From Methanobacteriota archaeon (GTDB lineage Archaea > Thermoplasmatota > Poseidoniia > MGIII > CG-Epi1): a stretch of 51,589 bases of DNA. Shown here piece after piece: positions 15,338-46,997 of this stretch (position 1 is its first letter; each line of letters begins with the position of its first letter). Made by a program: the position numbers and the translations under genes. The stretch lies in NCBI GenBank assembly GCA_002718915.1, contig PBGF01000026.1, positions 10,024 to 61,612 of the forward strand, written 5' to 3'. A model generated the notes under the pieces. The model ran no database searches and was not told the origin of the DNA. It saw only the letters and a list, made by a program, of their open reading frames with translations.

Positions 15338-18300
15338 TTACTCTAGTGGTACTAAGTCTACCTGACATTTATCAGTTAGACCGGCATCTGCAAGTGTTAG
15401 ATTATTGTCTACTGCAACTCCATTCAACATAACTGCAAAGTTTGCGTGAGGTAATGGGAATTTACCTACACAATTCTGCAATAATTTGTTAACTGGCATG
15501 TTAGATGGAACTTTAACATTTGCTGTTTTACCATCTATTGTCGAAACTATAGCTACACTTATCTTTGCTGGAGGTGCTGCTGCAGGCTCCTCACCTGTGC
15601 TTTCCTCATCTCCTGAATCATCAGAATCGTCATCAGATTCTGAGGAAGAACTGCCTTTCCTTCTACGAAGCATTACAACAGGTATAGCTAAGGCAAAAAG
15701 ACCTACTACCAATAATACTGGAATCAATAAAGGAACGCCTGTTACTAATTCTCTTTCGGATAAGGTATTAATAAATTCAATCTCACCAAGAACTGCAGGT
15801 AATGTAAGCTCAAAGTCTTCAACTACGAACTCATCATTATCAGTTCCATCTCCATTGTTAGTGGTATCACAATTATTACACTGCTGTATCTCGAAGTTTC
15901 CTGTACCTGCATCAATGGTCCATGTTAAAGTCAAGAAATCTTTGTTGTCTTTATCTGGAACTGTCCATGTGAAACTTACTTCTGTAGTATCATCCTTGTT
16001 TATTGATTCACTAATTTGCTGTGAAACTTCAGTTCCTGTACTATCTTCAAACTTCACTTGTAATGGCTTAGATGAAATTTGCCAATCTGCATTACCTATG
16101 TTCTGTACAGTTACTGTAATATCAACTTTTTCTCCTACTTGTGGACTAGTTGGATCCATAACTACTTTCTTAATCTTGAAATCTGGCAAGACGGAGAATT
16201 CAACTGGTATTTCACTCTGTTCAAACACTCCTGTTCTTGGCCATACGTTATCTGAATATCGTCCTAATTCATCAAACATGCGACCAGTCTCTGTAGAGAA
16301 ACCATCTCCCTCAGATTCACAAGTAAAATCTGCAATATCAACATCATCACATACTGGATTAACCTCTGCAATGAATGCAGTCCATTCTTCTAATTGTGCT
16401 TTCCATCTGAAACGTACTTCTTGAGTTTCACCAGCATCTAAATCGAATAATACATATTCTTGATTTGTACGGTCTTTTAATCTTACATTCTCACTGCTTG
16501 TATCTGCAGTAATGTAAAGACGACTGTTATCAACGTCTGCAGCCCCTGCGTTAGTAACTGTAACTGTAAAAGTTACTGTATCATCTACATTTGGAGTACC
16601 TGCGTTAGAACCTGCATACTTACTGTCTACACGCATTGCAGTAATCTGTAAATCAGGTTTTACTCTAAGTAATTCAGAATATCTTGCATCATTATTATTT
16701 TCATTTTCCTCTAATATTTCACCATTATCATTGTTCTTATCATAATCTGCTCTAGCTTCCACATACCATTCACCACCTTTGATAAGCCAGTCATCAGAAA
16801 CTAATTCTTTGGAATTACCTTCCTTAATGTTTGTAGATCTTCCAGAACTACCATATAATTGATAGATGTAAGTATTTTTGGAATCATCAAATTCAAAACC
16901 TGCAATCAGTAATTCATCTATTTCTTGTTGCGTTGTTGGTGCTTTTTTAGGATAATAATACATCTCTACATTAACATCATCTGCGTCTGCTGAACCTGTA
17001 TTTTCAACATCTACATAGATTACAACTGTATCTCCATCTTTAACTTGTGAGGCGTTACCAAAAACACCATCAATTTCTATTCTGATATTACTTTGCTTGA
17101 TAACTATCTCAGGCCTTTCAATTACTACAATTAAATCAATTTCTTGACGTGCATTAGGATCATCTTCCTCATTTCTAACTGAAATCTTAACTGTTTCATT
17201 TCCGACTTCAGCTTCATCATTTACTGATATGAAAACCCAAAGATCATCAAGTTCACCTTCTTCAATAGTCACTCCAGCGTTTGGCCAACTTTGTGTTTTT
17301 GAACTATCTTGGAAGAAAGTAACTGTCCAACCATCCTCAAGTGTAGATTCAACTTCAGGAATAAAAATATCATCATTTGAGCCAGTATTATCCAATTTAA
17401 CCTTGAATTTTACACTGTTCTGTGTAGTAGACCCTTCATATTCTGGATAAATTTCCTTCATACTATCAATTGCTGTAGCTGATAGTTCTCTTCTTGGAGA
17501 TGCAACTTCAAGATTAACTGAAACTTGAACTGCTGGATCAATTCCATTATTAGGTGAAAACTCAGTAAGTACACTGTAATTTCCTATATCTGAATCTTGA
17601 TCTGGTTCAACACATAAGTAAAGATACTTGGACTGACCTGCTCCAATTGATCCGGTAAAACTACTTGAACAAGAAGGATTTTGGAATATTTCTACAGTCC
17701 ATTCATCTGGATAAGTAGTTGCAATTGTTTCTACGTTTACTGAATCTTGACCATTACCTGTATTTGTAAGCTTGAAAGTAAATTTCTCAGTTCTTTCCTC
17801 AGCATCGGTCTCAGTGGAAGGATAAGAAGTTATTGATTCAGAACCTACAATTTCTACTTTAGCTCCATAAATCTGGCCAATATCAACTTGTAATGAGGCC
17901 GTATCACTTTGAGATAAATCTCCTCCTGATTTGACCTTGACAGTTATACTATAACTATTTTCCTGAAGCGCAGTCCTTTCTTGGTTTGTCAAATTCTCAA
18001 GAACGTAGGCTGGCAAGGTTACATTAACTGTAACAGAAGCTGTTTGCTCTTTTTCTAATGTAAGAGAAGTAATATTAGAAGTAGCCCAGCCCAAATCATC
18101 ATCTAGGATTGAAACAATTAAATTATCAGCTCCGTCTCCTGTATTCTTAACATCTATTGCAAATGATGCGGTAGAACCTGGTAACTTCTCAATTTCTGTT
18201 ACATCAGTACTTATTTCCACACCTCTGCTCAAATCTACTTCTACTGTTAAATTGACTACATCAACTGATTTATCTCCAGTTGCACAATCTTCACAATCTG

Positions 18301-20680
18301 AGACTCCTCTAATCGACAAAGCATAATCTCCCTTAGCTGTACTCTCAGGAACTGTTATTGACAAGGTAACTTCCTCTGTACCACTTTCTGCAACGTTAAC
18401 AAATGATTTACTAAAATCTAGACCTGTCCAACCATCTGGCTTATCTACAATACTCATTGCAATAATATCATCACCAGTTCCCAAATTTTCGATATCTATT
18501 GTAACTGAAACTGGAACTCCGACAGTCGCCTCAACTGTTCTATCGCTATCTGCAACAGATAAATCAATCCAATATTCTTGATTGACAATAGTGATTATGC
18601 TTACAGTCTTATTCGCATATTTAGGTGGATTCTCTTTTTGAGCTTCATCTGAGGAAGCTGTCAAATTAATACTAAATGCCTTATTATCCTCACCAGATCT
18701 TATTGAAACATTCAACTTAACTATCTTTTCTCCACCGGCTGGAATTTCTTCAACCTGGAAAGAAACTGGATCTACAGACCAACCTGCTGGATAATCATCA
18801 ATATTTACCGTAAATGTATCATTACCCGTTCCTTCATTCTGTATACGTACATCATATTGTATTGTTGAACCAGGATCTCCACTCTTGGATGAGACAACTA
18901 CATCAACCTTAAACTGTTTATTGACTGATACTTTAACTGTTCCTGTATCGTATGCTGATGGGTTATCTTCTGATGTGCCATTTACAATAATATCATTATC
19001 TCCGACTGTTGCATCATCATCTATATTTACTGTTAAGTTAACTGTTTTTGTTTCACCACGAGTTAATTCAACTTCATCTACTATTGAAGCCCAAGATGAC
19101 TTATCACCTTCAAGAGCTAAGGATACTGTATCTTCACCATTACCCTTATTTTTGATAGTCATTTCGAATGTTAACTCATCTCCAGGATCTCCTTTCTTAG
19201 AACTATCGCCAGAAACTTGAACTGAAACCTCATAAATTTGAAGCACGTTCACAAAAATATTTCTAGTTGTTGTTGTTGAATCATCCTCAGATGTTGCTTT
19301 GACAATTATAGTATAACCATTCTTTGCTTCTGTATCCTTTGGTGGAGTTACTCTAAGTGTTGTAGTATCATTTGCACCGGCTGCAAGGGTAAATGCTGAA
19401 TCTCCAAGTTGACCCCAGCTAGCATTTCCCCCAACTAAGGATAGAGAAATATCATCTTCACCATTACCATCATTCGTAATTTTAATAGTGAAATTAACTT
19501 GTTCTTCAGGCTTAGCTGATTGTGTATCTTCTCCATCTATTGCTAATTTAGGCTCATAATTTTGCAATACTGTTGTTCGCGAAGTATATGTAGAATTAAT
19601 AGATGAATTAAAGTCTGAAGATATAGTAACAATTATCTGTGTCTCAACATCTGCTGCCGCATCATCTGGTGCTTTAACTACTAACACATCTGTTAGTGTA
19701 ATGTTATCATCAACTCCAAGGTTACTGATTTTATCTTGATCCAATGATGCATCCCAGCCTTCTGGTAGATTTGAGGTATCTACTTCCAAATTAAATGTAT
19801 CCACAGCATTACCCTTGTTGGTAACTTCAAAGGAATAATAAACACGCTTACCTGCTTCAACATCACTTGAACTTGAACCTACTTTATCAACCTGAAGTGC
19901 TGGAAGTTGATTAACTTTAACTGTAACTGATGTGGATGAAACTGTTTGTCCATCCTCTGAAGTAGAAATAATAGTAATACTCTTCAAACCTGCAATTGCT
20001 TCGATGTCTGGAGTTACTGAAAGATTGAAGAATCCTTCTTCGTCAATATCAAGAGTTATCGTCGAAGGTTGAGGTGTAATATCCCATGAATCTACACCAT
20101 TAGCAGTAAAAGAAATTGTTACACTATCTTCTGTATTACCGCCAGTGTTATTGACACTAACGAGGAATTTTACATTTTCATTTGGATCTACAGTCTTTTC
20201 ACCAATTGATGGAGTCAGTGTAGTTCCATAAACGTTGTTAACTGTTAAAGATGCTGTTTGAGTCTTAGTTTTACCTCCACTATCACTATTTTGTGATTTA
20301 GACTTGAAACTAACTTGTGCCGTATCTCCTCCTTCAGCCGTATCTGTTGTCCTATCTGCTATTTTAATAAAAAGTGTAGCCGTTCCAGATTCATCCTCTT
20401 CAACAGATAAAGTAGATGGTAAAATAAAGGCTGTATAACCTGTAGGAATAGTAGAATTAGTGACACTCATATCATAAGTATCATCGTTATCTCCCGTATT
20501 TTCAATTGTTATTGTATACTGCAGTTGCTCTTCTGGATCTCCAGATTGAGAACTTGGGCTTACAGTCATCTTGTGATCATAAGCATCAGCTGAAGCGACT
20601 CCTGTAATTAGGAGAAATCCAAAGCATATTAGCGCAAGCGCCAATGTGTTAGCAAACCAATTTTTTAGGTTAAGGCTCAT
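15338..20680 (-). CDS. Giant surface protein with NEW3/CARDB-like repeats and a cytosolic ubiquitin-like tail
   Basis: The protein has 1780 residues. A signal peptide (about 1-31) is followed by about ten beta-sandwich repeats of ~110 residues. Each has an N-[TKDE]-G-x-x-x-D core such as NTGDNDDTYDMSV, NKGNGEDTVSLAL or NTGNGQDSVNV, typical of NEW3/NPCBM-associated domains. Three CARDB-like repeats follow (NTGSADADDVNVEMYY, NAGAADVDN, NIGNADWQ). A membrane helix (VPLLIPVLLVVGLFALAIPV) near 1645-1670 leads to RRRKG, then a Ser/Asp/Glu linker. The last ~75 residues look like a ubiquitin-type beta-grasp domain. It is probably a major cell-envelope stalk or adhesin anchored in the membrane. A TATA box lies at 20711-20717. 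Confidence 0.9.
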   Translation of the reverse strand: MSLNLKNWFANTLALALICFGFLLITGVASADAYDHKMTVSPSSQSGDPEEQLQYTITIENTGDNDDTYDMSVTNSTIPTGYTAFILPSTLSVEEDESGTATLFIKIADRTTDTAEGGDTAQVSFKSKSQNSDSGGKTKTQTASLTVNNVYGTTLTPSIGEKTVDPNENVKFLVSVNNTGGNTEDSVTISFTANGVDSWDITPQPSTITLDIDEEGFFNLSVTPDIEAIAGLKSITIISTSEDGQTVSSTSVTVKVNQLPALQVDKVGSSSSDVEAGKRVYYSFEVTNKGNAVDTFNLEVDTSNLPEGWDASLDQDKISNLGVDDNITLTDVLVVKAPDDAAADVETQIIVTISSDFNSSINSTYTSRTTVLQNYEPKLAIDGEDTQSAKPEEQVNFTIKITNDGNGEDDISLSLVGGNASWGQLGDSAFTLAAGANDTTTLRVTPPKDTEAKNGYTIIVKATSEDDSTTTTRNIFVNVLQIYEVSVQVSGDSSKKGDPGDELTFEMTIKNKGNGEDTVSLALEGDKSSWASIVDEVELTRGETKTVNLTVNIDDDATVGDNDIIVNGTSEDNPSAYDTGTVKVSVNKQFKVDVVVSSKSGDPGSTIQYDVRIQNEGTGNDTFTVNIDDYPAGWSVDPVSFQVEEIPAGGEKIVKLNVSIRSGEDNKAFSINLTASSDEAQKENPPKYANKTVSIITIVNQEYWIDLSVADSDRTVEATVGVPVSVTIDIENLGTGDDIIAMSIVDKPDGWTGLDFSKSFVNVAESGTEEVTLSITVPESTAKGDYALSIRGVSDCEDCATGDKSVDVVNLTVEVDLSRGVEISTDVTEIEKLPGSTASFAIDVKNTGDGADNLIVSILDDDLGWATSNITSLTLEKEQTASVTVNVTLPAYVLENLTNQERTALQENSYSITVKVKSGGDLSQSDTASLQVDIGQIYGAKVEIVGSESITSYPSTETDAEERTEKFTFKLTNTGNGQDSVNVETIATTYPDEWTVEIFQNPSCSSSFTGSIGAGQSKYLYLCVEPDQDSDIGNYSVLTEFSPNNGIDPAVQVSVNLEVASPRRELSATAIDSMKEIYPEYEGSTTQNSVKFKVKLDNTGSNDDIFIPEVESTLEDGWTVTFFQDSSKTQSWPNAGVTIEEGELDDLWVFISVNDEAEVGNETVKISVRNEEDDPNARQEIDLIVVIERPEIVIKQSNIRIEIDGVFGNASQVKDGDTVVIYVDVENTGSADADDVNVEMYYYPKKAPTTQQEIDELLIAGFEFDDSKNTYIYQLYGSSGRSTNIKEGNSKELVSDDWLIKGGEWYVEARADYDKNNDNGEILEENENNNDARYSELLRVKPDLQITAMRVDSKYAGSNAGTPNVDDTVTFTVTVTNAGAADVDNSRLYITADTSSENVRLKDRTNQEYVLFDLDAGETQEVRFRWKAQLEEWTAFIAEVNPVCDDVDIADFTCESEGDGFSTETGRMFDELGRYSDNVWPRTGVFEQSEIPVEFSVLPDFKIKKVVMDPTSPQVGEKVDITVTVQNIGNADWQISSKPLQVKFEDSTGTEVSQQISESINKDDTTEVSFTWTVPDKDNKDFLTLTWTIDAGTGNFEIQQCNNCDTTNNGDGTDNDEFVVEDFELTLPAVLGEIEFINTLSERELVTGVPLLIPVLLVVGLFALAIPVVMLRRRKGSSSSESDDDSDDSGDEESTGEEPAAAPPAKISVAIVSTIDGKTANVKVPSNMPVNKLLQNCVGKFPLPHANFAVMLNGVAVDNNLTLADAGLTDKCQVDLVPLE

Positions 20681-23121: not shown

Positions 23122-23661
23122 TTACTTTACAAACAATCTGTATTTTTGATCAGTTTCACGAATTTCATTCTCTATTCTTTGTGATAAATACTTTTCTGGA
23201 TTTCTAAAACTAGAAATTTTCTCTTCCATTTCTTTGAAAGTTTGGTATGGCCTATTACTAACTATAAGATTCATAGTTTTTTTACCTAGCCCCGGAATTA
23301 ATTCTAAGGAATGATATCTACGTGATATCGGTCCTGCATGATTGTAAAATTGTATAAATTTCTCTTCATTATCTTTTACAATTTCATCTAATACAAAACT
23401 TAACTCACTTTGTGCAGTATGCGTCAAATCAGAATAATTGACTCTTGCGCGTACATGATCTATTTGTTTTCGATCTTCTGTCTCTTTGCCAATGTAACAC
23501 TTATCGCCAATATTTATTGCTGCACCTGCAATTGGTTGCATATCAAAAATTTTAAACTCTTCAATTCCTAATCCGTAAACTAAAGGCTCTCTTCTAAATC
23601 TTCTTTTACTATCGGGCCTTCCTTCTGGCAATACATCAAGAACGTAGGCATAATCTTCCAT
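23122..23661 (-). CDS. DUF655 protein (OB-like plus helix-hairpin-helix, probable RNA binding)
   Basis: The 179-residue archaeal protein opens with MEDYAYVLDVLPEGRPDS, the family hallmark, followed by an OB-like beta region (about 30-90). A helix-hairpin-helix follows with LELIPGLGKKTMNLIVSNRP near residue 118-137. DUF655 proteins are found next to rpoF and ksgA in many archaea and are thought to act in RNA or ribosome-related processes; the exact role is not established. Here it is last in a minus-strand run after Pus10, L21e and Rpb4, three bases after the rpoF stop. The ksgA gene that often follows is absent here and lies 10 kb away. Confidence 0.93.
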   Translation of the reverse strand: MEDYAYVLDVLPEGRPDSKRRFRREPLVYGLGIEEFKIFDMQPIAGAAINIGDKCYIGKETEDRKQIDHVRARVNYSDLTHTAQSELSFVLDEIVKDNEEKFIQFYNHAGPISRRYHSLELIPGLGKKTMNLIVSNRPYQTFKEMEEKISSFRNPEKYLSQRIENEIRETDQKYRLFVK

Positions 23662-23664
23662 AAA

Positions 23665-24156
23665 TCATACCCCCATGGTCTCCCTAACTACTGATATTAT
23701 AGTATCTATCTCATCATGTCCAAGCGAGAAACGTTCTCTAGCAAATATTGATCTAACATCATCTGCATGCATGGGTAAAACATCTGCAATCTTAGCAGCA
23801 TAATAATCATTAACATGTTCTAATTCTATTACTTTTTCAATTATTTGATTTGCTTGCTCAGGAGAAGCCTGCGTAATTAAACGAACATGATCTAAAGCTA
23901 ATTTGTGTTCATATTGTATCTGTTCAATTAAAATTAATCTTTGTGATTCGCATTTTTCACAAATAGGTCCAGTATATTCTTCTGACTCTTCTTCATCATC
24001 TGATTTTTCTACTTCAGGTTCAACATCTGGAACTGCTTGAAAATGACCACAATCTACACATCTCAAACGATTCTCTCGAACGCTTAACTCTTTTTCAAGT
24101 AATTCTTTTGCTACACCTAAAGGTACTGGTTCTGGTTGTTTATCTACGTCCATCAT
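23665..24156 (-). CDS. rpoF: RNA polymerase subunit Rpb4/RpoF with an inserted zinc-ribbon-like segment
   Basis: Rpb4 pairs with Rpb7 to form the stalk of archaeal RNA polymerase. The family core is split. EPVPLGVAKELLEKEL (about 9-24) corresponds to the N-terminal strand and helix. QYEHKLALDHVRLI through KIADVLPMHADDVRSIFARE, then ISVVRETMGV, forms the HRDC-like helical part. Between them (about 30-75) lies an insertion with C33/C36 and C66/C69 in CVDCGH and CEKC, separated by a very acidic loop, which should bind zinc. The protein is 163 residues against roughly 105-120 usually. The start is the first of two adjacent ATGs, seven bases after L21e. Confidence 0.9.
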   Translation of the reverse strand: MMDVDKQPEPVPLGVAKELLEKELSVRENRLRCVDCGHFQAVPDVEPEVEKSDDEEESEEYTGPICEKCESQRLILIEQIQYEHKLALDHVRLITQASPEQANQIIEKVIELEHVNDYYAAKIADVLPMHADDVRSIFARERFSLGHDEIDTIISVVRETMGV

Positions 24157-41367: not shown

Positions 41368-44300
41368 TTAGGAACAGCCAGTTGTGGAACCACAACTTAC
41401 ACATTTCAAGCAGCTACCATTTGAAACTAGAGTAAATTGTCCACATTCTGGGCAAGGATCTCCCTCGAAACCAAACTTTTCAGCTTCTTTAACAATTGTG
41501 CTATCTCCAGATAACAAAGGTGCATCTGAAGTCGATAAGTCTGTTACAGATGACTGAAACGATGAAGTATCTGCACTAGAAACATCCATATCATCTAATG
41601 TTAACTGAATTTCATGACCATCAGTAGCTTCACCTGCAGGTGTTAATCCTGAGTTAAGATTCTGTTCTGTTTCAGCTTCTCCTTCACTTCGAACTATATC
41701 TGGCTTCAAATCTTCAGGCTTGACATGAGCAAGATCATTCCTAGCCAAATAGTTAACAGCTAAATCTCTGAAGATATAATCTAAAATACTTGTTGACATT
41801 TTAATTCTTTCATTTCCAACTACAGGACCATTTGGTTCAAATCTAGTGAAAACAAACGCGTCTACGAATTCCTTAAGTGGAACGCCATGCTGTAAACCAA
41901 GACTTACTGCAATAGCAAAAGCATTCGTTAAAGCCTTGAAAGCTGCACCCTCTTTGTGCATATCAATGAAAACTTCTCCTAAAGTACCATCCTCATACTC
42001 TCCAGTATGCAAGTAAACATTATGGCCTCCAATTTTTGCTTTTTGAATATATCCTTTTCTCTTATTAGGTAATTTTCTTCTTTGAGCAATATACCTAGTA
42101 ACTATTTTACGTGCAAGTGGAACTGCATCTGGTGTTGGAAGTGCCTGAGCCATAGTCTCTACAGCTTGTTCAGTACTAACCAAATTATCTGAAATCATTT
42201 CTTCTTCATCAATATCAACTTTCAATACAGTTCCTGACATTAACGGTTGACTTAATTTCGAACCATCTCTATACAAGGCATTAGCCTTAATCATAGCTCT
42301 CCAAGAATCCATGTAAACATCTTTGATATCCTCTATTGTTGATTCATGAGGCATATTGATTGTTTTTGATATTGCTCCAGAAATAAAAGGTTGAGCTGCG
42401 GCCATCATATTGATGTGTGCGCTCCAGCCAATAAACCGCGTCCCATATTGTCCACATTTGTTTGCACAATCAAAAACTGCCAAATCACTGTCCTTCATAT
42501 GAGGGGCGCCTTCTATTGTTAATCTACCAAATATAACGTCGTTAGCTTCTGTAATTTGCTCCGTAGTATATCCTAAATGAGCAAGTAAATCAAAGTTCCA
42601 ATCATCCAAAAATTCTTCTTTAACTCGCAATTTTTTAGTACAGAACTCTGTACCTACCATTGATGGAGTAATAAGTAGACTCAAGGAAGTAAAGCTACTT
42701 ATTTGAGATTCTAAAGAATCAATTATATCGTTAGTTAAACCTTTTCGAATCAACGATTCTCTATTAATTCCTGGTGATTTCTCAAATGTTCCAGTCCCAA
42801 TTACATAATCTACTATCTCTTTAGATTGCGTAGAATCATAGCCTAAACGATTCAATGCAACTGGAACAGATTGGTTGATTATCCTGAGCATACCGCCGCC
42901 AGCTAGAGTCTTGAATTTCACCAAAGCAAAATCAGGTTCAATACCTGTAGTATCACAATCCATTACAATTCCAATTGTACCTGTTGGTGCAATTACAGTC
43001 GCCTGAGCATTTCTAAATCCAAACTTTTCACCATCATCAACAACTTGATCCCAACAATTTTGCGCTGCAGAAAGCAGATATTCTGGACAATAATTAGGAT
43101 CTATTCCTCTAGGTGTTACAGTCAAACCTTCATATTCCTCTGAAGGCGCATTGTAGGCTGCCCTTCTATGATTTCTCATAACTCTTAGCATGTTATCCTT
43201 GTTATTTTCATATCTTGGAAACGGCCCCTGCACAGATGACATTTCTGCACTTGTTGCATATGAAACTCCACCTAATATTGATGTTAAAGCTCCACAAATA
43301 GAAGTAGCTCTATTATCATCGTAAGGAATGCCCATGCGCATTAACAATGAACCAATATTGGCATATCCCAACCCTAATGTTCTATAATCATAACTTCTTC
43401 GAGCTATGGCTTCTGAAGGGAATTGTGCCATCAATACTGAAATTTCTAATGCTACAGTCCAAAGTCTTATGGCATGACTATATTTTTCAGTATCAAATTT
43501 AGTAGATTCTTCGTCGTAAAATTTAACCAAATTCAGACTAGCCAAATTACATGCCGTATCATCTAAAAACATATACTCTGAACATGGATTACTGCCGTTT
43601 ATAGGGCCATCATCAGAACAGGTATGCCATTCATTTATTGTTGTATCATACTGCAAACCTGGATCTGCACAAGACCAAGCGGCTTTAGATATCTTATTCC
43701 AAAGATCATTAGCTGGAATTGATTTACAAGGGTTTGGATCTCGATCTTCCTCTTTTGCATCATCTAATTCAGTTCTCCAAAATAAATCCCAATCTCCTTC
43801 ATCAAGAACTGCCTGCATGAAATCATTACTAACTCTTACCGAATTGTTACTATTCTGACCTGAAACTGTGGAATATGCATCTCCTTCCCATGATGTATCA
43901 TATGTTTCAATATCCATATGCGTATAGCCTTGCTCGCCCAATTCCAATACTCTTGCAATTATATTTTCAGGCACATAGGCCTGCATTGCAACGCTTATTG
44001 CTTTGGCCAATGGCCGATTCTTACCTTGATCAAACTTTGAATCATCATCTGGATGTGCTTGTATTGCAGCTAATATTTCATTAGCATGATTTTGAAGATG
44101 CTGAGAACCAGAAACTAATGCAGCTACTTTTTCCTCTTCAGTTAATTTCCAATCAATAAAAGCCTCAATATCTGGGTGATCCATATCTAAGCTTACCATT
44201 TTTGCAGCTCTCCTAGTTGTACCTCCTGACTTTATTGCACCAGCTGCCCTATCTCCTATACGTAGGAAAGACATAAGGCCTGATGACATTCCACCGCCAG

Positions 44301-45057
44301 AAAGCGGTTCACCATCTCCTCTAATTTTGGAAAAATTACTTCCTGTACCTGAACCAAATTTGAACAACCGAGCTTCGCGAGTCCATAAGTCCATAATTCC
44401 GCCTTCATTCACTAAATCATCAGATACTGACTGAATAAAGCAAGCATGAGGCTGTGGATGCTCGTACGCATTTACGGAACGCTCTAATTCCTCAGTCTTA
44501 GGATTTACAAAATAATGACCTTGGGCTGGCCCTTCAATTCCATAAGCCCAATTCAAACCTGTGTTAAACCACTGAGGGGAATTTGGAGAAACCATTTGAA
44601 ATGCAAGCATAAAGCACATCTCATCAAAATAGGATTTTGCATCCTCTTCACTTGCAAAATAACCGTGTTTCCATCCCCAATATGTCCAAGTTCCTGCTAA
44701 ACGTCTAAATGTCTGTTTACCATCAACTTCTTCACCAAATTTCTCAGATTCTGGTAAATCTTCCATAGCTTTGATATCTGGAACACTTTTCTGAAGCCAA
44801 GTGGGAACTGCTTTTTCTTTAACTTTTCTAAGTTTCTTAGGAATACCTGCTTTTCTAAGATATTTTTGTGCAAGAACGTTAGAAGCAACCTGACTATAAT
44901 TGTCAGGAAGTGTAACATCTTTCATAGAAAAGGCGACTGTTCCATCAAAATTTCTTATTTCAACATCTTTCTTTGACCAAGACAATTTGTCAAAAGGATC
45001 TTTTCCACTTTCTGTGAAATGTCTAGATATTTTTAATGCATTAGCTTTGGCAGGCAA
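41368..45057 (-). CDS. nrdJ: Adenosylcobalamin-dependent (class II) ribonucleoside-diphosphate reductase
   Basis: The enzyme makes deoxyribonucleotides using a B12-derived thiyl radical. The 1229-residue protein has [18 protein letters not shown] (first active-site Cys), [20 protein letters not shown] with [34 protein letters not shown] (radical Cys and Glu), [20 protein letters not shown], and a C-terminal zinc-ribbon tail with CPECG and [11 protein letters not shown] that re-reduces the active site. No intein is seen. The start is TTG at 45057, preceded by GGGGGTGG as a Shine-Dalgarno-like element inside a hairpin. Immediately upstream and in the same frame lies a 20-codon leader ORF ending in TAG. 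Confidence 0.96.
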
Positions 45058-45120
45058 CTAGGCCACCCCCCAAGGTGGCAAAAATGACTCATCATTTACA
45101 AAAATTTGATTTAATTTCAT
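45058..45120 (-). CDS. In-frame 20-codon leader ORF ending TAG directly before the RNR start
   Basis: On the minus strand an ATG at 45120 opens MKLNQIFVNDESFLPPWGVA, and TAG at 45058-45060 is followed at once by the TTG start of RNR in the same frame. The TATA box at 45142-45150 is centred 26 bases before this ATG, the spacing seen at other leaderless starts here, so the mRNA should begin at this ATG. It may be a leader peptide that couples or regulates RNR translation. Alternatively it is the true RNR N-terminus, interrupted by a UAG that is read through or is a sequence error. No homology to the RNR family is evident in the 20 residues. Confidence 0.5.
   Translation of the reverse strand: MKLNQIFVNDESFLPPWGVA
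45062..45079 (-). promoter_or_regulatory. Hairpin covering the RNR ribosome-binding sequence
   Basis: GCCACC and GGTGGC pair across a six-base loop. The right arm on the minus strand contains the GGGGGTGG that lies about five bases before the TTG start. Translation of the leader ORF would open this stem, which suggests a translational switch. Confidence 0.45.
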
Positions 45121-45141
45121 GATTTTCTACCATTAAGCAAG

Positions 45142-45150
45142 CATATAATA
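45142..45150 (-). promoter_or_regulatory. TATA box of the RNR transcript
   Basis: TATTATATG on the minus strand is centred 26 bases before the leader ATG at 45120 and about 89 bases before the annotated TTG start of RNR. Confidence 0.55.
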
Positions 45151-45186
45151 AGTATTTCATACGTTTAGAAAAAATGCAAAAACTTC

Positions 45187-45217
45187 CATTTTTCGTAGTA
45201 CGTCTACTGCAAAAATG
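45187..45217. promoter_or_regulatory. Dyad-symmetric element upstream of the RNR promoter
   Basis: CATTTTT (45187-45193) mirrors AAAAATG (45211-45217), and inside it GTAG mirrors CTAC around a centre near 45201. The element is 40-70 bases upstream of the RNR TATA box and downstream of the nadE terminator-like hairpin. It is a candidate binding site for a regulator of nucleotide reduction. It does not match the bacterial NrdR box. Confidence 0.35.
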
Positions 45218-45218
45218 A

Positions 45219-45251
45219 ACAAAAAAGAGTAGAACCTGTCAAAAAACAGGT
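45219..45251 (-). terminator. Terminator-like hairpin plus U-run after nadE
   Basis: On the minus strand ACCTGT, a six-base TTTTTG loop and ACAGGT form a stem, followed after a few bases by a run of six T. It lies about 80 bases beyond the nadE stop and before the RNR promoter elements, as expected for ending the nadE transcript. Confidence 0.5.
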
Positions 45252-45330
45252 GTTGGTTCCACAAATTTAATAGTAAAAGCACTCAAAAAGAAGTGTACGT
45301 TAAATGCCGTAATAATTAAATTATAAAAAA

Positions 45331-46134
45331 TCACTTAGTACCTATTGTTTCGCGCCAATCTAAACCGACTGTTCTGAGCCCTATCTTGCAAACTGGAGGA
45401 AAGACTCTTTTGTGTATTGATAATCTAATTAAACCTTGAATTTTGGCTATTTTTTTGATAGAAATTCCGATTTTATTTGATATTTTATCAACTGCAGAAA
45501 ATCTCTCTAACTCATAAAGAACTTTGTCAAGTTCCAAATAAGTAAAACCAAGATCTGCTTCATCTGTTTGTTCTGGCCACAATTCTGCTGTAGGTTTGCG
45601 CGTCAATATTTCAGAAGGTATCCCTAAGGATTCGCCTAAATTAAAAATTTGTGATTTGTATAAATCTCCTATTGGAAGAAAATCAGTCCCTCCATCACCC
45701 CATTTAGTATAGTATCCAATCAAAAGTTCTGATTTATTAGAAGTTCCAACCACTAATCTATTGGATGAGAAACCATACCCATACAATAATGACATCCGGA
45801 TTCTTGAATGTAAATTTCCTTCTGATAATTTTTCAGAGTATAAATCCGATGATTTTTTGTATGATGAGACAATATCATTGATATTAATGGTTACAGTATT
45901 CACTCCCAATGATTTAGCATGATTATTTGCCAAATCTACAGATTCAGTGACATGAAAAGGCATAATCAAGCCAGTTACTTTTTCTGAACCTAATGCTGAA
46001 ACTGCTAGAGACAAAGTCGCTGCTGAATCAAGACCTCCAGATAAACCTAATACAACTCCTTCTGATTCGGCATCTGCAACTCTCGATTTGATGAAATTAG
46101 TAATTATCTCAACCGTATCTGGAAATATCTTCAC
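45331..46134 (-). CDS. nadE: NAD synthetase, short (ammonia-type) form
   Basis: The enzyme amidates nicotinic acid adenine dinucleotide to NAD. The 267-residue protein is the synthetase domain only. It has the PP-loop LSGGLDSAA at 31-39, VVGTSNKSELLIGYYTKWGDG and FLPIGDLYKSQIFNLGESL, and RKPTAELWPEQTDEADLGFTY. There is no fused glutaminase domain. The GTG start at 46134 is divergent from a nitrilase-family gene 68 bases away, which could supply ammonia in trans. A hairpin terminator follows downstream. Confidence 0.96.
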   Translation of the reverse strand: MKIFPDTVEIITNFIKSRVADAESEGVVLGLSGGLDSAATLSLAVSALGSEKVTGLIMPFHVTESVDLANNHAKSLGVNTVTININDIVSSYKKSSDLYSEKLSEGNLHSRIRMSLLYGYGFSSNRLVVGTSNKSELLIGYYTKWGDGGTDFLPIGDLYKSQIFNLGESLGIPSEILTRKPTAELWPEQTDEADLGFTYLELDKVLYELERFSAVDKISNKIGISIKKIAKIQGLIRLSIHKRVFPPVCKIGLRTVGLDWRETIGTK

Positions 46135-46173
46135 TATTATGCGAAAAGGAGGGTGTAATTTAAATTTAACAAT

Positions 46174-46182
46174 ATTATATTA
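46174..46182 (+). promoter_or_regulatory. TATA-like box of the nitrilase gene
   Basis: ATTATATTA lies about 25 bases before the ATG at 46203. A second AT-rich block (TTAAATTTAA at 46160-46169) is placed for the divergent nadE start. Confidence 0.45.
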
Positions 46183-46202
46183 TTACGGCCCTATCAGAGA
46201 CT

Positions 46203-46997
46203 ATGCATTTGGCGTTAGGGCAAGTTCCTGTAATTCTTGGAAATGTAAATCAAAATCTAAAAATAATGGAAGATTCCATTTTGGAAGCAAAAACCAAAAG
46301 TAAAGAAGATATAGACTTAATTGCATTCCCTGAATTATTTATTACTGGATATAATTTAAAAGATAATTATAACTTAGTTTCTGAAGAAATACCTTGTAAT
46401 GGTCCTGCACAAGAAGGAATGCTTGTCTTAGCTAAAAAACATAACATAACTATACTTACTGGAATTGTAGAAAGAGCTAAAAAATCACTATTTAATTCTG
46501 CAGTAATGATTGGACCTGAAGGATATATTGGACATTGTAGAAAACAATACTTACCAAATTTTGGTCCTTTTGAAGAAAAAACTTTTTTCGGTGAAGGAAA
46601 TGAAACTCATGTTTTTGAAACCAATTTCGGAAATATAGGTGTTCAAATATGTTATGACCTATTTTTTCCTGATGTATCAATGAAAATGGCCCAAAAAGGT
46701 GCCGATATTATTCTAAATTTAGCTGCAAGTCCAACTACTTCTCGTCCTCTTTTCCATAGAGTATTACCTGCAAGAGCAATTGAAACTACATGCTATTATG
46801 GATACATAAATAATATTGGTACGCAGGGCAATCTGGTGTTTGCAGGTGAATCATGCATTTTAGATCCTAGAGGTAAAGTAATGATGGAAATAGAAAAATT
46901 TGAAGAAGGCACTATTGTTTGTGAAATCCCTCTTGAAAATATTCAGAAATATAGAGATTCAAGGCCTGTTCTTAGAGACTCTATGAACAAAGATTAG
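46203..46997 (+). CDS. Nitrilase-superfamily carbon-nitrogen hydrolase
   Basis: The 264-residue amidase has the full catalytic set: E44 in IAFPELFITGY, K114 in HCRKQYLPNFGPFEE, and the nucleophile C150 in VQICYDLFFPD. Members hydrolyse amides such as omega-amides or N-carbamoyl compounds; the glutaminase domain of long NAD synthetases is a relative. Gene position, divergent from a synthetase-only nadE, suggests it may be that missing ammonia source, but the shared motifs are common to the whole superfamily. It could equally be an omega-amidase-like or biodegradative enzyme. The second geranylgeranyl reductase follows on the same strand. Confidence 0.9.
   Translation: MHLALGQVPVILGNVNQNLKIMEDSILEAKTKSKEDIDLIAFPELFITGYNLKDNYNLVSEEIPCNGPAQEGMLVLAKKHNITILTGIVERAKKSLFNSAVMIGPEGYIGHCRKQYLPNFGPFEEKTFFGEGNETHVFETNFGNIGVQICYDLFFPDVSMKMAQKGADIILNLAASPTTSRPLFHRVLPARAIETTCYYGYINNIGTQGNLVFAGESCILDPRGKVMMEIEKFEEGTIVCEIPLENIQKYRDSRPVLRDSMNKD

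Follow-up and report, generated by a model that had tools for sequence, protein, structure and literature searches.

Why should the gene for a ribonucleotide reductase (RNR) be preceded, with no intervening base, by the stop codon of a 20-codon reading frame, and why should its ribosome-binding sequence lie inside that frame, within a predicted hairpin? The question arises in the window (the whole stretch of 51,589 nucleotides analysed here), which is part of a 55% complete genome from a genus that, by the named relatives of the RNR, includes the Marine Group III euryarchaeote CG-Epi1. The amount of RNR in a cell sets a limit on DNA synthesis, and the known control of these enzymes in prokaryotes is mostly transcriptional (NrdR) or allosteric. 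The protein in the window exceeds the cut-offs of PF08471, PF02867 and NF005736, so that the N-terminal and barrel domains of a class II enzyme are present, and the match to the best of the RNR family profiles starts at residue 8 when the protein is read from the TTG. The elements of the locus are as follows.

45143..45152, minus strand: TATA-like box CTTATTATAT; in 18/18 loci the leader start codon lies 32-33 nt downstream of its first base
45058..45120, minus strand: leader ORF (MKLNQIFVNDESFLPPWGVA, then stop), ATG at 45120, 20 codons plus TAG, intact in 17/18 loci
45062..45079, minus strand: hairpin GCCACCTTGGGGGGTGGC covering the Shine-Dalgarno sequence (SD), within the last codons of the leader ORF
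45063..45070, minus strand: SD GGGGGUGG for the RNR start, inside the 3′ arm of the hairpin
45058..45060, minus strand: leader stop TAG, abutting the RNR TTG at 45057 (distance 0); TAA or TGA in relatives
41368..45057, minus strand: class II (adenosylcobalamin-dependent) ribonucleotide reductase, TTG start, 1229 aa

The TATA box, the ATG at 45120, the 20-codon ORF, the TAG, the TTG and the hairpin had been reported in the first-pass annotation, and all are present in the minus-strand sequence, with their coordinates right. Leader and RNR share one frame in the window, with a single stop between them. The hairpin GCCACCTTGGGGGGTGGC has 7 bp, counting a G-U pair, and a computed energy of -11.0 kcal/mol; among the loci compared below, the 15 with the main form have predicted values of -11 to -13 kcal/mol and the other three of -3.5 to -11.3 kcal/mol. 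The SD that it covers sits inside the leader ORF and is strong and well spaced from the RNR start, and the 16S 3′ end, intact as GGATCACCTCCT in four relatives, can pair with GGGGGUGG in a duplex computed at -12.0 kcal/mol. SD-led starts are also found elsewhere in the genome.

Upstream of RNR, in the same direction, lies the NAD synthase gene (nadE), and the pair is kept in nine named loci of the genus that were checked, in three loci checked of the sister genus and in CG-Bathy1. Between nadE and the RNR promoter there is also a dyad, GTGGAACC-N18-GGTTCYAC (45229-45262, minus strand; 172-205 nt before the RNR start), whose 18-nt spacing is fixed in most loci of the genus; in L009, L010 and L012 one of the two half-sites is degraded. 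In the sister genus the dyad is present and is followed, about 28 nt beyond it, by a third half-site, and exact matches within the genus occur before RNR only. The dyad could be the operator of a transcription factor, or a nadE 3′ hairpin with a T-run.

The start region of RNR was compared in 18 loci with readable upstream DNA, 13 from the genus (the genome of the window included) and five from the sister genus. All 18 share one layout: a TATA-like box, a leader start codon, an ORF of 17-20 codons, and a stop that touches or overlaps the start of class II RNR. The spacing of box and start is the same in the two loci where the leader begins with GTG. Within the genus the leader has 20 codons in 12 of the 13 loci, and its stop, which is TAG in four, TAA in five and TGA in four, touches the TTG. 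In the sister genus the leader is 17-18 codons long and its TGA or TAA overlaps the ATG of RNR by 1 nt (TGATG or TAATG) in all five loci. The junction TGATTG of the genus thus differs from the TGATG of the sister genus by one inserted T, a change that puts leader and RNR in a different relative frame while stop and start stay in contact. The three stop codons interchange yet stay stops, and a sense codon stands at this position in no relative. For the first-pass annotation, conservation of frame, stop and hairpin among relatives was what would speak for a leader, and the three are conserved across the genus and into the sister genus.

The exception is L013 (UBA136), where a 1-nt indel, confined to the UBA136 genome (L013, L041), leaves a leader that is read from a GTG in a different frame and runs 15 nt into RNR; it may be an error in one MAG sequence or a real variant, and in the latter case it would test the coupling model set out below. 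Farther away the layout is lost: in Marine Group II relatives the RNR start differs and the arrangement of leader and hairpin is absent, and in CG-Bathy1 the hairpin layout is absent before RNR. That last genome (L021, about 2150-2070, minus strand) carries a 16-codon ORF with an SD-like sequence of its own, which starts 34 nt before the RNR start, ends inside RNR and contains GGAGG; this ORF, seen in a single genome, could be either a divergent form of the leader or unrelated to it.

Is such an open frame to be expected by chance among related sequences? In the 17 intact loci the leader frame has no stop in 327 codons, whereas the other two frames of the same DNA, a control that preserves relatedness, have 48 in 310 and 17 in 310. 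In neutral simulations along the tree of the genus, whose branches sum to 1.77 substitutions per site as fitted to the leader block, the open frame, the start and the stop were all retained in 0 of 6000 runs, and each alone was retained in 1.7% (open frame), 0.8% (start codon) and 3.6% (stop codon). The rarity of such leaders in the genome was judged through the hairpin pattern and through the window. In 13/13 genus genomes with an assembled RNR the palindrome is present a single time, in front of that gene, except that one of them has one additional, shorter match elsewhere; reversed-pattern controls gave no matches, and viral contigs contained no copies of the leader and hairpin element.

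Three other leader-like candidates were seen in the window. The one at the gene 15338-20680 was rejected, its candidate ATG being part of the TATA box that serves a leaderless main gene, and unconserved among 14 genomes, and the one at 23665-24156 proved to be the end of the upstream reading frame (14 genomes); the third lies before 23122-23661. The gene at 15338-20680 (minus strand) encodes a protein of 1780 aa in which Ig-like domains (CARDB, NEW3, DUF11) are repeated, likely a surface protein, and has a TATA box 37-38 nt before its ATG at a position that is conserved in the genus.

What, then, has selection kept? The stem is invariant in the 13 loci of the genus and in two of the sister genus. 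In the three other sister-genus loci the sequence has changed and the 5′ arm of the hairpin is shifted by one codon, the SD being still covered (pairing by inspection); in L017 the hairpin is weak, with one mismatch and -3.5 kcal/mol. Over the 15 loci of the main form, codon 14 is TTG, CTG, CAG or TCG, and so encodes Leu, Gln or Ser, but its third base is a G throughout, paired with the final C of the stem; Pro15 is encoded by CCA in every locus, the A of this codon pairing with U; and Pro16 is CCT or CCC, both of which pair with G, and never CCA or CCG. The middle and upstream codons of the leader are under weak amino-acid constraint (pN 0.12, pS 0.19, pN/pS about 0.64), and a conserved functional peptide was rejected on these grounds. 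Because the third bases of codons 14-16 follow the pairing and the middle is weakly constrained, it is the hairpin and the SD that are conserved rather than the leader peptide. Column by column, no covariation can be claimed, since the stem pairs of the genus never vary.

The explanation that we find best, and regard as probable from sequence comparison, is that the leader ORF is leaderless and that RNR is translationally coupled to it through opening of the hairpin followed by termination and reinitiation. Spacing of 32-33 nt from box to start is what is expected if archaeal transcription begins at the start codon, and ribosome loading without an SD is common in archaea. Because the TATA-like box stands at this fixed distance from the leader start in every locus, as the promoter element of a leaderless mRNA would, the RNR message is probably leaderless, transcription beginning at the ATG or within a few bases of it, the transcript start being placed here by the TATA spacing. 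The features by which coupled genes are recognised are likewise present: stop and start are in contact, the SD lies inside the upstream ORF and finds an intact anti-SD, and a structure is predicted over the downstream ribosome-binding site.

From this anatomy and its conservation we infer that the leader is translated, that the hairpin is opened and that RNR depends on the leader, in the following way. The 5′ end of the RNR mRNA would lie at or beside the AUG of the 17-20-codon leader, on which ribosomes would load without an SD. As long as the hairpin is folded it would hide the SD of RNR and hold down independent starts at this internal site. A ribosome that translates the leader would traverse the hairpin while reading the final six to seven codons and terminate at the stop that touches or overlaps the RNR start; with the SD now exposed, the same terminating ribosome, or another, could start RNR. 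Most of the enzyme would then come from messages that keep an intact 5′ end under translation.

Several observations stand against this coupling. The leader of L013 is out of its usual frame, the hairpin of L017 is weak, and the invariance of the genus stem pairs leaves true covariation absent. CG-Bathy1 and the Marine Group II relatives do without the hairpin layout, and for Sulfolobus no coupling in vitro was found at an adjacent UGAGUG pair that has an SD (cited in PMC6728339). In Haloferax and E. coli, genes must overlap or lie very close together to be coupled by termination and reinitiation (PMC10666635), and stop and start distances such as those at RNR do couple genes in both organisms (PMC6728339, PMC10666635); for E. 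coli, the last 15 nt of an upstream gene can suffice. Two models of coupling have been proposed, unfolding of RNA and reinitiation (PMC12548453).

Does the arrangement also respond to a signal? A leader whose translation or stalling, for instance at Pro-Pro or through the efficiency of leaderless starts under stress, tracks a cellular signal and thereby sets RNR output is an explanation that we consider possible though doubtful. RNR is the sole PF02867 gene found per genus genome, and the NrdR zinc-ribbon gave no match in 14 genus genomes (G000-G013, several of them incomplete), while the same family matches in 9 control bacteria; for these two reasons regulation at this locus is worth testing. 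A Pro-Pro pair stands just before the SD in 16/18 loci and Ser12 is kept in the intact leaders of the genus, and in Mycobacterium a uORF is essential for the downstream gene under a B12 riboswitch (PMC11260477). Against a sensing leader, L017 and L019 have lost the Pro-Pro pair, and conservation of the peptide is weak. Neither a run of regulatory codons, or of any single amino acid, nor a consistent alternative fold of terminator and antiterminator, as a leader-peptide attenuator would have, was present, and an Rfam scan of 44000-46500 gave two sub-threshold chance matches only. Leader and hairpin may thus be a constitutive coupling device. As for the translational switch proposed in the first-pass annotation, the hand-over of ribosomes from leader to RNR stands as the best explanation of the anatomy and the comparison, and the response to a signal found no riboswitch, codon run or alternative fold to go with it. 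We put forward, tentatively and as a speculation, that where NrdR is not apparent the leaderless mini-ORF relays the rate at which leaderless messages are translated to the single RNR, by way of the hairpin gate; if so, deoxynucleotide supply would be set at translation, a form of RNR control for which the literature searched gave no precedent.

RNR could instead be an ordinary SD-led gene, translated from its TTG with its own SD after a short 5′ UTR, the ORF and the hairpin being by-products. The strength and spacing of the SD, and the SD-led starts elsewhere in the genome, are what such a gene would show. We think it unlikely, as an ORF that is a by-product should have lost its frame, start or stop over the divergence sampled, and the arm of the hairpin that is not the SD, GCCACC, should vary, yet it is invariant. 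It is quite improbable, too, that a repressor uses the palindrome GCCACC-N6-GGTGGC as its operator in the DNA, the leader ORF being incidental. The perfect 6+6 inverted repeat is invariant in the genus and lies in transcribed DNA just below the promoter, but an operator leaves the conserved frame, start, stop and stop/start contact unexplained, and one arm is exactly a well-placed SD. The single occurrence per genome and the one-codon shift of register in three loci also count against it, as does the seventh pair, U-G or C-G, which is tolerable in RNA and asymmetric in DNA. Finally, the proposal, also raised in the first-pass annotation, that the leader is the N-terminus of RNR with its TAG recoded or a one-base sequencing mistake is scarcely credible and was rejected, for although the two share a frame in the window and two sister-genus loci have an ATG further upstream that is open into RNR, the stop, of variable type and never replaced by a sense codon, is found in 13/13 genus sequences from independent assemblies, leader and RNR occupy different frames in the sister genus, which leaves no way to make a fused protein from that leader, and the family profile already starts at residue 8.

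A conserved translational gate before the RNR of widespread uncultured marine archaea would be a layer of control different from those known, and the pair of leader and RNR would be a compact, testable natural case linking a leaderless start to an SD-led start in archaea. The parts are of known kinds; neither a leader ORF before an archaeal RNR nor this combination was found in the literature searched, where subscription journals were mostly absent.

One likeness is to the coupling of gene pairs, known in archaea (2019, PMC6728339; 2023, PMC10666635), which share with our locus the contact of stop and start, the SD inside the upstream ORF and the expectation of coupling; those pairs are ordinary operon genes, whereas here the upstream partner is a leader of 17-20 codons, probably leaderless and poorly conserved in its middle. 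In the RNA-unfolding model, too, a structure over the downstream ribosome-binding site is opened by upstream translation; the accessible part of PMC12548453 describes no archaeal RNR, and at our locus opening and termination would both fall within seven codons. Bacterial leader genes (Korolev et al., 2016, PMC4833913) are likewise short ORFs that end close to where a structural gene begins, a hairpin overlapping the SD in some of them, and leader ORFs that raise expression by reinitiation have been proposed among them; the preferred distances there are about 10-16 bp, in contrast to 0 or -1 in our archaeon. The ppe2 uORF of Mycobacterium tuberculosis (PMC11260477) resembles the leader as proposed here in that the downstream gene requires translation of the uORF, by way of termination and reinitiation, but it is part of a B12 riboswitch, and here a riboswitch was not found. 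Archaeal uORFs detected by dRNA-seq and Ribo-seq (Haloferax, PMC4983044; Methanosarcina, PMC11456600) are also short ORFs in 5′ regions; they are findings of surveys, those of Haloferax lying in 5′ UTRs of 150-250 nt, whereas before the RNR of these marine archaea it is conservation that supports a specific layout.
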